This document shows, piece after piece, positions 3,332-49,069 of a stretch of DNA of 51,270 bases. Every line of letters begins with the position of its first letter. Position 1 is the first letter of the stretch. The position numbers and the translations under genes are program-made. The notes beneath the pieces were generated by a model, which saw only the letters and a list, made by a program, of their open reading frames with translations, did no database searches and was not told where the DNA came from. Source of the DNA: Candidatus Tetragenococcus pullicola (GTDB lineage: Bacteria > Bacillota > Bacilli > Lactobacillales > Enterococcaceae); the NCBI GenBank assembly GCA_019115705.1, contig DXDB01000046.1, positions 1-51,270 on the forward strand. Direction: 5' to 3'.

Positions 3332-3507
3332 TTCTTCACTTCCTAAACTAATAAACACTATTTTTTTAAACGAAAAGACGAAACATTCTTCTATTCTACC
3401 ATTTAAACCCTCTAATGAATAGGGGGAAACCTCTCCCTATGCGCCTCAAATATTTTATTTTTAAACCAATCAAATAAACTCGAGATAAATTTTGTGTAAC
3501 GTAACGA

Positions 3508-3537
3508 TTGATTTGCGTTATCGCCGTAAAATATAAT
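3508..3537 (+). promoter_or_regulatory. Sigma-A promoter of the intergenic transcript
   Basis: TTGATT, an 18-base spacer and TATAAT. It fires rightward into a gap with no reading frame, giving a predicted start near 3544, about 320 bases before rpmG. Confidence 0.55.
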
Positions 3538-3543
3538 ATGAAT

Positions 3544-3745
3544 CACTCTCAGTTTCTACATTAGTGGTCACTGAGAGGTTTAAGCTTAAAAGCCATGATG
3601 AGATTCACGATGAATCAAGGACGTCATTTTTTAGTCTACATTGTACACAATGACAGATGTGAACAATCGCGGTCTCATGGTCAAAAACAACAGACAAAAT
3701 CGTATGGTCTAGCCGTGTTGGGTAAATTTTACAGTGGAGAGTACC
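3544..3745 (+). ncRNA. Candidate structured RNA, about 200 nt
   Basis: This stretch has no ORF but its own promoter. The predicted ends can pair (ACTCTC at 3545 with GAGAGT at 3737). Inside, CCAT-GAGA can pair with TCTCATGG, and local hairpins such as CTCTCAGT/ACTGAGAG are possible. Length of about 200 nt with paired ends resembles 6S RNA, and a 5-formyl-THF cyclo-ligase gene also neighbours 6S RNA in enterobacteria. I could not confirm a conserved 6S core. It could instead be a long rpmG leader. Confidence 0.35.
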
Positions 3746-23123: not shown

Positions 23124-23151
23124 TAAAAAAAATTGAAGTTCATCCTTCAAT
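23124..23151 (-). terminator. Terminator of fur, overlapping its stop
   Basis: AATTGAAG-GATGAA-CTTCAATT followed by TTTTTTATG on the minus strand. The left arm encodes the last fur codons and the stop codon is in the loop. Confidence 0.8.
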
Positions 23152-23610
23152 TTTTTCTTCTTTTCTTTTTTGTTGACAGCTGCGACAGATGCCATGAAAG
23201 GTCAGTCGATGATCTTTGACTTGAAAATGATAGCGATCTTCTACTATTTCTTCTACGCTTCCTAGTAAATCTTCATCAATTTCTTCAATCGAGCCACATT
23301 CTAGACATAACAGATGATGATGAAAATGTTTGGCGCCTTCTTTTCTAAGATCATAGCGGGAGACACCATCATCAAAACTAATTTTATCAACTACTTTTAA
23401 TTCAGTCAGTATTTCCAACGTACGATAAACAGTAGCCAAACCTATGTCAGAATTTTTTTGTTTCACAAAAAAGAAAACTTCTTCAGCTGATAAATGATCT
23501 TTTTCTTTTTCTAACAAAACCAATACTGTAGCTTCTCGCTGTGGCGTCAGTTTGAAACCTGCATCGTGAAGTTTTTTTTTCGTTTTTTTAAGAGATTCTA
23601 CCGTATTCAT
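23140..23610 (-). CDS. fur: Ferric uptake regulator Fur
   Basis: A 156-residue metalloregulator that represses iron-uptake genes when Fe(II) is plentiful. The winged helix contains KLTPQREATV and GLATVYRTLEIL, the metal site HFHHHLLC, and the structural zinc site CLECG plus CRSC. It is much closer to Bacillus Fur than to PerR or Zur in the pattern VVDKISFDDGVSRYDLRKEG. GGAG precedes the ATG. PerR-type boxes in its promoter suggest control by peroxide, as for Bacillus fur. Confidence 0.92.
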   Translation of the reverse strand: MNTVESLKKTKKKLHDAGFKLTPQREATVLVLLEKEKDHLSAEEVFFFVKQKNSDIGLATVYRTLEILTELKVVDKISFDDGVSRYDLRKEGAKHFHHHLLCLECGSIEEIDEDLLGSVEEIVEDRYHFQVKDHRLTFHGICRSCQQKRKEEKIEG

Positions 23611-43037: not shown

Positions 43038-44648
43038 TTATTTTAATCTCTCAATTTTTTTATCCTTAGCCTGATAAACCACATCACAGATTTTCAGTGG
43101 CTGTTTTCGATGAGTGATCATTAAAGCCTTTTGTTTTTGTTCTTTTAAAATCTTTAAAAAAAGCTGTTCGTTATAAGTATCTAAATTACTCGTAGGTTCA
43201 TCTAAAATCAACAATTCTGGCAAAACAATTAATGCTCTTGCTAACTCTAAACGTTGAAGTTCTCCCGAAGAAAAGGGTGGTTCATTTGCATCAATTTTCG
43301 TATCCAAGCATGCTGGCAATTCACTTATCTTCTTAGATAAATCCATCCTATTCAACATGCTTAATAGCTGTTTATCAGAGATTCCTTCTCTTCGTAATGT
43401 CAAATTGTCACGTAGCGTTCCTGAAAATAAAACTGCCTTTTGAGGAACGTAATTGATATTCGATCGAACAGAATCTATAGATGTTTTTTTTGATTCCACG
43501 GTATTAAGCAATAATTCTCCTAATTGGTTTTGATACCATCGCATGACTAACTTAACAAAAGTACTTTTCCCACTTCCGCTTTTCCCCACGATTCCTGCAA
43601 TTTTTTCATGATTTATTGAAAGTGAAACATTTTCAATAACGGGATTTTCATCTGAATATGCAAAAGTTAGCTGTTTTGCTTCTATTGGCATGACTTGAGA
43701 AAGTTTTGTTTGACCATCAGGAATTTCACTCTTTTCATCTAAAAATCCAAAAACATTTTTAGCAGCTTTCAAAGCCTTTGACAATGAAACTGACAGATTA
43801 CCTAAAGCTAAAACCGGTCCAAATGTAAATGGATATAACAAAATATAAGTCATATTTTCTGAAGTAAATTCTCCAACAGAACGTTTCACTAAAAGTATAA
43901 AGCCAATCCAAAGTCCCAATAAGCTATAACTCATAAAAAATTCTTTTGTTTTTGTTAGTTGATCAATTTTAATTGTAGTTTTAAACTCTTGATTAAATAA
44001 TTGATTCAGTTGATTTAAGCGCTGAGGAATCGCTCGAAGCTGTTTCAAATCTTCTTTTCCAATAATTGTCTCTAGTAGATAATTTTGAATCTCATTTTTT
44101 TCAATAGAAAGCTCATTTGTGTGTTCTGTTAATGATTGACGTTTCAATAAAGGTAGAAATAAACCCATAATCAAATAGCCAAATAGTAAATAGACACTCA
44201 AAATTGAAAATTGTTTACCAAAAACATAACACATAGCAAAACTATAGGTGACTGCTGTCGTGACTGGTACAATTGTATGGGCAAAGAATACCTCTATTCT
44301 TTCGATATCACTATGAATAAGATTTAATAACTTCCCTTTATCTTTAGTGTCTAGCCGAGCTGGTGCTAAGAATCTCATTTTATGGTAAACGCTGATTCGT
44401 AAGTTAGACAGAAGTTTGAACGCCACAAAATGACCTAAGTACTGCTCAAAATATCTACTTAATCCCACTACCAAACCTATGAGAACCAATAAAAGAAAAT
44501 TTTGTTGAGATAGACTGAGGGTAAATAGACTCTTTAGAAGAAGGAATACACCAAAAGTTTCAAACAAAAAACCGCCTAAAGAACAAGCCAAGCTAGCAAT
44601 TAAAATTGGTACCAGTTCTCTCGTATAGACAAGCAATTTTTTTATCAT
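43038..44648 (-). CDS. ABC exporter half, full length
   Basis: A 536-residue exporter with an N-terminal six-helix membrane domain and a C-terminal ATPase: Walker A GKSGSGKST, signature FSSGELQR, Walker B LLILDEPTSNLD, His loop MITHR. The organisation is like that of CydCD-type heterodimeric exporters; the substrate is unknown. It overlaps the end of the truncated partner gene by four bases. Because that partner lacks most of its membrane domain, transport may be lost, unless this half can act alone. Confidence 0.88.
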   Translation of the reverse strand: MIKKLLVYTRELVPILIASLACSLGGFLFETFGVFLLLKSLFTLSLSQQNFLLLVLIGLVVGLSRYFEQYLGHFVAFKLLSNLRISVYHKMRFLAPARLDTKDKGKLLNLIHSDIERIEVFFAHTIVPVTTAVTYSFAMCYVFGKQFSILSVYLLFGYLIMGLFLPLLKRQSLTEHTNELSIEKNEIQNYLLETIIGKEDLKQLRAIPQRLNQLNQLFNQEFKTTIKIDQLTKTKEFFMSYSLLGLWIGFILLVKRSVGEFTSENMTYILLYPFTFGPVLALGNLSVSLSKALKAAKNVFGFLDEKSEIPDGQTKLSQVMPIEAKQLTFAYSDENPVIENVSLSINHEKIAGIVGKSGSGKSTFVKLVMRWYQNQLGELLLNTVESKKTSIDSVRSNINYVPQKAVLFSGTLRDNLTLRREGISDKQLLSMLNRMDLSKKISELPACLDTKIDANEPPFSSGELQRLELARALIVLPELLILDEPTSNLDTYNEQLFLKILKEQKQKALMITHRKQPLKICDVVYQAKDKKIERLK

Positions 44649-45883
44649 ACCTTCTCTCCTTTCTGGAGTACTTGAGCTCTGACTAACTGACGATACTGGA
44701 GATTTTTCTCGTATAACTGACGATGTTCTCCTTTAGTAATGAAGCCACGATCAATAAATAATATCTCATCTATTTTAGGAAGATATTCCATTTGGTGGGT
44801 GATAAGTATGATCAAATGGTTTCTCTTTAATTTTTCCAGTGCAGCCAGAATCGTTTGTCCTGTCTCGAGATCAACGTTAGAAGTTACTTCATCTAAAATT
44901 AGTACAGGTTTTTCAGATAACAATAATCGTGCGAATGCAATTTGTTGTCTTTGACCCGGCGATAGCAGTCGGCCATTTTCTCCAACTTGAGTTTTAAACC
45001 CTTTTGACAGCCCCGTAACAAATGCACATAAACCATACTCATCAAGTTTCTCTTTCCAATCCGTTCGATGAGGGTCACCCATTCTTAAATTGTCTTCGAT
45101 CGTCCCTGAGAACAATACAGACTCATTGCATAACAGACCGATATTTTCTTGCAGGGATTCTTTACTTAAACAAGTAATAGGAATCCCTGATAGTTTGATT
45201 TCTCCAGATTTCGGTTTAAGCTTTCCTTGTATCATTTTCGCTAAAGTACTTTTCCCGATACCATTCCGACCCACAAAACCATATATTTTTCCTATACTAA
45301 ATTGAAAAGTAAAGTCATGGATCAACGTTCGTTTATTCTCATAGCCGAAACTTACTTGTTGAAAGTCAATCATTTCAATAGTTGATAAAGCTTTTTTAGC
45401 TGGTTTTTCATTCGTTTTATTGCTCTGATCTATTACTTTAAAAACTCTCTTAAATGCTGGTGCCGCAGATTTGATAATATGCATGAAGTAGCCTAATTCT
45501 CTAGAACTCATTAACCAGCGAAAAAAGAATATCAGTATGGCCGCGGCAACTGCACTGTTTATCTGGTTTTTTTGTACTTGGATAATAGTCAGCCAAGTAC
45601 CCATCAACATTCCAAAAAACAAAGAGGTTCCCAACACAAACAAAGATTGCAATTGATGGTTTAAAAGAGCCATAGTACTAAGTCGAAATATTTCGGAATC
45701 TTTAGAAAATTCATTTTCATATACACCATCTTGCTGATACATGATCAATGTATTCATTTTTTCCATATCATTTACTATGACAGCAATTTTCTTTCCGTGA
45801 TTGCTATATAGAATATGATTTAAAAATGATGTTTTTCCTAATCCAAGATAGCCTATTAAGATCGTGACGGATATTTTTTTCAT
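44645..45883 (-). CDS. Chimeric COG0523 N-terminus fused to a truncated ABC exporter
   Basis: A 412-residue open frame made of two unrelated pieces. Residues 1 to about 45 (KKISVTILIGYLGLGKTSFLNHIL, then VIVNDMEKMN) are the start of a COG0523 GTPase of the YciC/ZigA group, the zinc metallochaperone family. From about 50 on it becomes an ABC exporter half that begins between the fourth and fifth membrane helices, with only two helices left. The ATPase is complete (GRNGIGKST, LLSPGQRQQ, VLILDEVTS). This is best explained by a deletion joining two genes. The protein is likely non-functional. ATG is chosen five bases after AGAGG. Confidence 0.8.
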   Translation of the reverse strand: MKKISVTILIGYLGLGKTSFLNHILYSNHGKKIAVIVNDMEKMNTLIMYQQDGVYENEFSKDSEIFRLSTMALLNHQLQSLFVLGTSLFFGMLMGTWLTIIQVQKNQINSAVAAAILIFFFRWLMSSRELGYFMHIIKSAAPAFKRVFKVIDQSNKTNEKPAKKALSTIEMIDFQQVSFGYENKRTLIHDFTFQFSIGKIYGFVGRNGIGKSTLAKMIQGKLKPKSGEIKLSGIPITCLSKESLQENIGLLCNESVLFSGTIEDNLRMGDPHRTDWKEKLDEYGLCAFVTGLSKGFKTQVGENGRLLSPGQRQQIAFARLLLSEKPVLILDEVTSNVDLETGQTILAALEKLKRNHLIILITHQMEYLPKIDEILFIDRGFITKGEHRQLYEKNLQYRQLVRAQVLQKGEKV

Positions 45884-45912
45884 AAAAACCTCTTTTCTTT
45901 TCACATCATAAA

Positions 45913-45960: not shown

Positions 45961-46455
45961 TTAGTCAGCAAGAATTTGTTTCAGTTTAGTCAAATATTTC
46001 TCGGCATTTATTTTAAATACTTTGGCTTTTTTGGGGTAAAACTTAGCCAGTTGGTTTTTGATATTTGAAACTTCTTTAATCGCTATTTTCGATAACATCC
46101 AAGTATAGGAGGCAAGTTCATGATGATGTCTTTTTTCACCATGATCATGGTCATGCTCTTCTTCCACACCCGGAAACAGAATCATAGCTTTTGTACCTTC
46201 CACTACATTAGGCGAACCTTTTTCGCAATTCTCTTTAGCTTTTGGCACTCATGTTTTCATGTTTTCATTATGATAAACAAAAGCATCAGCATCATGAGCT
46301 TTTGCCATATCCTTAGCAGAAGGTTCATAATAGTGGAGCTCTGATGCAGCTGGAATCATTAGCTTCACATTTGCTACATCACCAACGATATTCTTGGTGA
46401 AATCATAAACTGGATAAAATGTCGTTACAATCTCCAATTTTTTCATCTTTATCAT
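45961..46455 (-). pseudogene. AdcA/ZnuA-like zinc-binding protein, degenerate
   Basis: Two track ORFs are one frame interrupted by TGA where homologs have Trp (MKT-stop-VPKAKEN). The text is zinc-binding lipoprotein: IVTTFYPVYDFTKNIVGD, then SELHYYEPSAKDMAK in place of the usual SEPHDYEPS, and a His-rich loop EEEHDHDHGEKRHHHE. There is no signal peptide; a short MKKISLGSI frame just upstream could be its remnant. It stops at 165 codons, losing the second half of the protein. It is part of the zinc island and clearly dead. Confidence 0.88.
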
Positions 46456-46501: not shown

Positions 46502-46624
46502 TTACACTAATTTCTTCATTTTATTTCGTTTATGTTCCTTGATAATTTTTAATGCTCTTTTCCTAGTTTTGATGTTCGGACTCTTGAGACGCCTATATGC
46601 ACTAGATAAATCCATTTTTTCCAT
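46502..46624 (-). CDS. Small basic protein of the zinc island
   Basis: A 40-residue lysine- and arginine-rich protein missed by the ORF track: MEKMDLSSAYRRLKSPN then KTRKRALKIIKEHKRNK. A strong SD (GGAGGTGG) is six bases before the ATG, so it is a real gene. I recall very similar short proteins annotated as putative metal homeostasis proteins near Zur-regulated genes of lactic acid bacteria, but cannot check. It lies between the COG0523 scrap and the broken zinc-binding protein, and it is one of the few members left intact. Confidence 0.7.
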   Translation of the reverse strand: MEKMDLSSAYRRLKSPNIKTRKRALKIIKEHKRNKMKKLV

Positions 46625-47395: not shown

Positions 47396-47575
47396 CTATT
47401 TTGAAGATTCTTTCATTACTTGCTTCCCGTTGTAGTAACCCTTCAAAGAGACATGATGACTACGTCTATAATCACTACTAACTTCGTCAAATGAAATTTC
47501 AGGTTTTGCTACGATTTGGTGAGTTCTTCTTAATCTTTTCTTCGTCTTAGATGTTTTTCTTGCCGGTACTGCCAT
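47396..47575 (-). CDS. rpmF: 50S ribosomal protein L32, cysteine-free
   Basis: A 59-residue protein missed by the ORF track: [19 protein letters not shown] and then [19 protein letters not shown]. The zinc ribbon cysteines of ordinary enterococcal L32 are absent. It resembles the cysteine-free streptococcal L32. Placed after rpsN behind a Zur box, it should replace the zinc form when zinc is scarce. It is intact with SD GGAGGAAG. Confidence 0.93.
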
Positions 47576-47601
47576 GATACTTCCTCCTCATAAGATGCAA
47601 A

Positions 47602-47871
47602 TTACCAACTTGCTTTCTTTACTCCAGGTATCAACCCTTGATGAGCAAGTTCCCTAAACTTGATACGAGACATACCAAACTTTCGCATATAACCTCTTGG
47701 ACGACCATCCGTCTGATCACGAAGCTTCAGATGAGTTGGGTTTGAATCCTTTGGTAATTTAGCAAGGGCCACGCGATCTCCTACATCTTTTAGTTCCTGA
47801 CGTTTTTCTGCATATTTTTCAATCATCGCCATTTGTTTGTTTGCCTTAGCTATTTTCGATTTTTTTGCCAT
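47602..47871 (-). CDS. rpsN: 30S ribosomal protein S14, zinc-independent form
   Basis: The 89-residue long form of S14, without the CxxC pairs of the short zinc-binding S14: [13 protein letters not shown] at the start, [20 protein letters not shown] and PGVKKASW at the end. In Bacillus the equivalent (yhzA) is Zur-repressed and rescues S14 assembly under zinc starvation. It is the first gene after the Zur box. SD AAGGAG precedes it. Confidence 0.95.
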
Positions 47872-47910
47872 ATTTATTTATGCTCCTTCTTATGTTGATT
47901 TTCTTGTGCC

Positions 47911-47931
47911 AAATCGTAACCATTACGATTT
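47911..47931. promoter_or_regulatory. Zur box
   Basis: AAATCGTAA-CCA-TTACGATTT, a 9-3-9 palindrome. The core TCGTAACCATTACGA is one base from the Bacillus Zur consensus TCGTAATNATTACGA. It lies just downstream of the rpsN promoter. Confidence 0.88.
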
Positions 47932-47940
47932 AACGTTGAT

Positions 47941-47969
47941 AGCTTATCATTAAAAAAATCCGTTGTCAA
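47941..47969 (-). promoter_or_regulatory. Promoter of the zinc operon
   Basis: TTGACA, a 17-base spacer and TAAGCT on the minus strand. The Zur box starts 10 bases past the -10, so bound Zur would block it. Confidence 0.65.
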
Positions 47970-48155: not shown

Positions 48156-48727
48156 ACCTACCTAGAACGCTTCACCGCATTGGGTAGCTCTCCACCTATG
48201 AGAAGAGATGAAATTTCTGTGGGTCTTCCTCGACCGCCTGATCATGAATTCAAAGTTGCTACCATTCGTAATTATATTGATCCTTTGATTGGCCAAATGA
48301 AATTATCGGATATCACGACTACGGGCTTGTTATTGCCTTAGAAAATGGTAATCCAGTTGAAAGTCGGATTATTCGCAATCGATTCCAGTTCTTGTGTGAG
48401 GAAAATGGCCTAGAAGTCGTCGTTTTTCACAGTCTCCGTCATTTAAGCACTAAGTATAAGTTGAAGATGACCAATGGAGACATTAAATCCGTTCAAGGCG
48501 ATACGGGTCATGCGGAAGCAGAGATGGTCACCGATGTGTATTCAGAAATCATTGATGAGGATCGTCGTTTCAATGCGAAGAAATTAGAGGACGAATTCTA
48601 TGACAGTTTAAAAGTAACACCCATTGATGACCCGGTCAATGATGAGGAGAAGTTATTGGTCTTGCTTAAAAATTTATCTCCAGAAGCGAAAGAAAAATTG
48701 TTAAAGTCGGCAATTTCGGAGTGTTAG
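48156..48727 (+). pseudogene. Tyrosine integrase remnant
   Basis: A phage- or ICE-type integrase with its middle deleted. A first piece keeps the core of the SAM-like DNA-binding domain (TIRNYIDPLIGQMKLSDIT); after a frame change DYGLVIALENGNPVESRI leads into the catalytic domain: HSLRHLSTKYKLK, GDTGHAEAEMV, DVYSEI (the nucleophilic Tyr). The early catalytic Arg and Lys region is missing, so it cannot recombine DNA. It sits beside tRNA-Arg genes, a typical integration site. Confidence 0.85.
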
Positions 48728-48896: not shown

Positions 48897-48907
48897 TGAT
48901 AAAAAAC

Positions 48908-48980
48908 GTCCCAGACAGGAATTGAACCTGCGACGTACCGCTTAGGAGGCGGTCCCTCTATCCTACTGAGGTACTGGGAC
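48908..48980 (-). tRNA. tRNA-Arg (CCU)
   Basis: A 73-nt cloverleaf: acceptor GTCCCAG/CTGGGAC, D arm CCTC..GAGG, anticodon stem ACCGC/GCGGT around CTCCTAA (anticodon CCT), T arm GCAGG-TTCAATT-CCTGT. It reads AGG codons. CCA is not encoded. It differs from the usual enterococcal tRNA-Arg(CCU), as if brought in by the island. Confidence 0.93.
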
Positions 48981-48983
48981 ATG

Positions 48984-49052
48984 AAAAAATTGGGCGTGTG
49001 CCCCAACAACCGCTTAGGAAGCAATTGCTCTATCCTACTGAGCTACGAGGAC
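48984..49052 (-). pseudogene. Truncated tRNA-Arg (CCU)
   Basis: The 5' half is a good tRNA: GTCCTCG, TA, GCTC..GAGC, anticodon loop TTCCTAA (anticodon CCT). The T arm and 3' acceptor strand are gone and replaced by GGTTGTTGGGGCACACGCCC followed by AATTTTTT, a small terminator-like hairpin. It resembles the native enterococcal tRNA-Arg(CCU), cut after the anticodon. Confidence 0.8.
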
Positions 49053-49069
49053 AAAAAAACACACTTTTC

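Follow-up and report, generated by a model that had tools for sequence, protein, structure and literature searches.

Why should a genome carry, side by side, genes for ribosomal proteins S14 and L32 that are devoid of cysteine, and what governs them? The question is posed by a locus in the window analyzed here, a 51,270-nucleotide stretch of Candidatus Tetragenococcus pullicola DNA (contig DXDB01000046.1, forward strand). A first-pass annotation had proposed that these proteins replace their zinc-binding counterparts under the control of Zur. In this report, we conclude that the locus is very probably an operon that Zur represses as part of the enterococcal zinc-starvation regulon; in it, zinc-free S14 and L32 would take the place of the zinc forms, and its distal genes have decayed. 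Of the readings considered, Zur-controlled replacement is best supported by comparative sequence data, namely the second copies of both genes and the conserved box, promoter, and gene order.

The proteins encoded by rpsN2 and rpmF2 contain no cysteines at all, and the claim that they lack zinc ligands is thus borne out. Further, the proposed resemblance of this L32 to the streptococcal form is upheld by its best match among solved structures, chain 5myj_B4 (from the Lactococcus lactis ribosome), which at 64 bits is far ahead of the other solved chains (42 bits or less). Upstream of the two genes is a promoter whose -10 element is weaker than the TAAAGT or TATAGT of relatives. With a 17-nucleotide spacer between TTGACA and TAAGCT, the start site is expected at about 47934, and the candidate Zur box therefore overlaps the start of the transcript, as had been suggested. 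The box had been described as near-consensus; it is in fact perfect (AAATCGTAACCATTACGATTT, with 0 mismatches to AAATCGTAANNATTACGATTT, the Bacillus-type Zur consensus). No other site in the whole genome matches this pattern as well, and the chance expectation, estimated from 100 shuffles of the window, was 0.00 even at 3 mismatches.

Features of the locus and related features in the window, with the basis of each assignment
Feature	Position	Strand	Basis or remark
-35 element TTGACA	47964..47969	-	6 of 6, by sequence; same TTGACA-17-TAnnnT in relatives
-10 element TAAGCT behind TGA (extended -10-like)	47941..47946	-	sequence and relatives
Candidate Zur box	47911..47931	-	perfect palindrome match; 9 nt after -10
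rpsN2, cysteine-free S14, 89 aa	47602..47871	-	PF00253 1.2e-25; NF006477 1.1e-31
rpmF2, cysteine-free L32, 59 aa	47396..47575	-	PF01783 4.3e-17; TIGR01031 5.6e-18
X125, uncharacterized protein, 125 aa	46992..47369	-	GTG start; adjoins C- L32 in nearly all relatives
rpmG2, C- type L33	46834..46968	-	frame broken in second half relative to relatives
40-aa RsaX20-type ORF, "putative metal homeostasis protein"	46502..46624	-	NF038026 5.4e-22, 77 bits (cut-off 30)
AdcA-II (zinc-binding lipoprotein) remnant	45961..46455	-	PF01297 in two pieces; DNA compared with E. avium L037
CobW/COG0523 GTPase N-terminal remnant	45752..45904	-	PF02492; E. avium DNA match ends at 45752
Zinc-type (cysteine-bearing) L33	3866..4015	+	same genome, within window

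This organization is widely conserved. A search of named genomes found relatives of the cysteine-free (C-) L32 in many species of Enterococcus and Tetragenococcus. The arrangement recurs in about 30 loci of these genera with a fixed promoter-box geometry; the distance from the -10 element to the box is exactly 9 nucleotides in 19 of the 23 loci checked. L32 is adjacent to X125 in 34 named loci, almost all of which also have S14 in the cluster; a Zur box with 3 or fewer mismatches is present in 30 of these 34 (both figures were counted by hand from the results table, and the locus counts include some near-identical strains). Within the genus, five of eight other genomes have C- L32 together with X125. 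S14 stands in front in four; in the fifth, the stretch examined starts about 900 bases before L32 and shows no S14. The genome of E. cecorum DSM 20682 holds two S14-L32-X125 copies, each behind a Zur box.

The operon was at first placed at 47396-47969. This extent is too short, as the operon runs to about 45750; S14 and L32 had been recognized correctly, while X125, the broken L33, the 40-residue ORF, and the remnants of AdcA-II and CobW had been missed. The full form is found in E. avium, where the Zur box is followed by S14, L32, X125, L33, CobW, the 40-residue ORF, AdcA-II, and a second CobW. From 48088 to 46812, the window aligns with this locus at 85% at the DNA level. Past 46812, the window lacks about 850 bases that are present in E. 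avium, and with them a CobW gene; the alignment then resumes at 77% and continues down to 45962. A second gap of about 1.2 kb, in which much of AdcA-II is lost, precedes a piece of the second CobW that ends at 45752. The AdcA-II remnant is frame-broken as well as truncated by deletion. A chimeric ORF at 44645-45904 (- strand), in which the CobW N-terminus (PF02492) continues in frame into the C-terminal portion of a former ABC transporter gene product (PF00005), was apparently left by deletion. An assembly error could account for the broken L33, but hardly for both deletions. S14, L32, X125, and the 40-residue ORF are intact in the window. The last of these belongs to NF038026 (RsaX20_sORF), members of which are regularly included in the Zur operons of relatives; a literature search for RsaX20 found no papers.

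The operon also appears to have traveled, which, like the decay, had gone unremarked in the first-pass annotation. Its S14 and X125 share 82-92% identity with their counterparts in E. cecorum, E. gallinarum, E. raffinosus, E. canintestini, and E. avium, although the core protein ScpB is only 48% identical to that of E. cecorum and 63-66% identical to those of the other four. Within the window's own genus, ScpB identity is 58-61%, and that of X125 just 51-54%. Such high identity of S14 and X125 despite distant ScpB proteins suggests that the operon moved between species, and on these sequence comparisons it most likely belongs to a horizontally spread clade. An E. faecalis megaplasmid typed as conjugative (NZ_CP143580.1) carries S14, L32, a hypothetical gene, and L33 at 83% DNA identity. 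Just upstream of the operon in the window is a tRNA-Arg(CCT) gene (48906-48981), and between the two is a tyrosine-recombinase-like remnant (48180-48727, + strand; a weak match, E 0.007, below the Pfam cut-off). These features are compatible with a decayed island, although no attachment repeat could be established. Separately, the 51 nucleotides at 49009-49059 are 80% identical to 48937-48987, which includes part of the tRNA-Arg gene; ARAGORN calls no tRNA there.

These facts raise the possibility that the operon is a decaying relic, i.e. that, after horizontal acquisition and the loss of L33 and of the genes for uptake, it has ceased to contribute to the cell, with S14 and L32 still intact because the decay is recent. 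The broken L33 frame, the two deletions relative to E. avium, the AdcA-II and CobW remnants, and the recombinase remnant and tRNA-Arg gene upstream would all fit such a history. Given that the -10 element is weaker than those of relatives and that the distal genes have decayed, the whole operon may indeed be losing function. However, no damage is seen in the -35 element, the box, S14, L32, or X125, and the perfect box is better than those of most relatives. We thus consider it unlikely that the operon has already stopped contributing, and its nature would be unchanged even if it had.

Another question concerns the regulator. The genome contains three Fur-family genes. The product of the one inside the window (23140-23610) is Fur, scoring 245 bits against an NCBIfam cut-off of 220, and another (on contig C128) encodes a protein nearest to PerR. 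The third protein, a 149-residue product of contig C190, is above no NCBIfam cut-off, and we have assigned it as Zur by elimination and context. Beyond the operon, the next two boxes in the genome precede adcA (1 mismatch; contig C106) and adcCB (2 mismatches; C103). Predicted boxes at these zinc-uptake genes and at the operon are the pattern expected of a Zur regulon. Other boxes in the genome, with 3 mismatches, were discarded as near background (a reversed-pattern control gave 2+2). Boxes of the Fur family are related palindromes, and the box might on that account serve Fur or PerR, of the same superfamily, or AdcR instead. This seems very improbable, as the exact AdcR consensus is absent from the loci scanned, the remaining good boxes precede genes of zinc uptake, and Zur control of the same genes has been published for E. 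faecalis (PMC6103462).

The first-pass annotation had pointed to a search for zinc-binding S14 and L32 genes elsewhere in the genome (2.6 Mb in 211 contigs, 98% complete). Both were found at their normal loci: a zinc-ligand S14 in the spc operon (C163) and an L32 with CPNC and CANC motifs (C208). There are also two zinc-type L33 genes, one of them inside the window. The presence of zinc-type S14 and L32 implies that the cysteine-free copies are spares. That the C- forms are instead the constitutive ones, as is L32 in streptococci and many lactobacilli (in many of the latter we found a C- L32 with no Zur box nearby), is already contradicted by these zinc forms and by the location of the C- genes behind a Zur box, and it can hardly be entertained.

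We therefore return to a Zur-repressed replacement operon, for which the following mechanism can be proposed. When zinc is plentiful, zinc-loaded Zur would cover the box at the start of the transcript and block RNA polymerase. On exhaustion of zinc, Zur would leave the box, and cysteine-free S14 and L32 would be made and used instead of the zinc-binding forms when new ribosomes are built. Such a swap would allow ribosomes to be assembled without zinc and would make the metal held by ribosomes reusable. The ancestral operon additionally encoded a C- L33, two COG0523 (CobW) GTPases, AdcA-II, the 40-residue ORF, and X125.

The part of the operon that most deserves the attention of specialists is X125, which is conserved, Zur-linked, and nearly always coupled to L32, yet has no assigned function. 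It is present in 50 of 398 Lactobacillales genomes, with most copies beside a C- L32; among the named loci of the Zur type, it is the neighbor of C- L32 in 34 cases out of 35. Six residues are invariant among 43 homologs. No Pfam family matches X125 above the cut-off; nSTAND_NTPase4 and the exonuclease VII small subunit were rejected, being below the cut-off and not common to the homologs. Residues 1-114 of the 125 match phrog_25006 (7.4e-12), a phage or satellite family of unknown function, and the profile is thus shared over most of the protein. Distant relatives in two lactobacillar loci (L151 and L152) lie beside recombinase- or replication-type genes typical of mobile elements, as assigned by eye, and have neither L32 nor a Zur box. 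The structure model has a pLDDT of 89; a fold search of the PDB and BFVD with it returned nothing significant (no PDB match below E 1.5). A single KilAC winged-helix match, with a prob of 0.85 over 43 columns and an E of 0.66, offers a weak lead. Two records named "Enterococcus phage Efs 1-1-1" contain X125; we did not accept them as a phage location, as they are unannotated and OR846641.1 is an unverified contig.

In one genome (G010, C1:1263500-1270000), a lone X125 homolog (3341-3682 of that locus, - strand) immediately follows a perfect Zur box and has neither S14 nor L32 as a neighbor. A transposase-like ORF is located upstream of this homolog. We tentatively suggest, as a possibility somewhat short of even, that X125 acts together with C- L32 as a factor in zinc starvation and derives from a phage or satellite family. 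Its role might then be, for example, to assist the entry of zinc-free L32 into ribosomes, to protect idle ribosomes, or to act as a secondary regulator.

Comparison with known systems places the operon in a familiar setting. The Zur box of Bacillus subtilis is of the same type. Its Zur regulon likewise includes a C- S14, but the ribosomal members listed are rpsN2 and rpmE2, without L32 (PMC6103462). In Streptomyces coelicolor, C- L32 (rpmF2) and S14 are under Zur (PMC6103462, Table 3; PMC3087516), although more ribosomal proteins are involved there; in Salinispora, Zur sites are predicted before paralogous L32 genes (PMC3087516). A close counterpart is in E. faecalis, the Zur regulon of which is given in a review as adcBC, adcA-II, adcA, yciC, and two copies each of rpmF2, rpsN2, and rpmG2 (PMC6103462). 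Membership of the three ribosomal genes comes from published microarrays (Latorre 2015, as cited in Table 3 of that review). Further, gliotoxin, a zinc chelator when reduced, moves E. faecalis towards the non-zinc S14 and L33 paralogs (PMC10533825). Because rpmF2 is thus already on the list of Zur-controlled genes for both E. faecalis and S. coelicolor, a Zur-linked L32 operon is not new, and the earlier remark that such an L32 is less often described somewhat overstated its novelty. The operon in the window resembles the E. faecalis regulon in its Zur-linked rpmF2, rpsN2, rpmG2, COG0523, and adcA-II genes and differs in the damage to, or loss of, L33, AdcA-II, and CobW. Alongside these systems, the swap to a zinc-free L32 would appear to belong to the normal zinc-starvation response of the Enterococcaceae, encoded by an operon that most likely moves between species.
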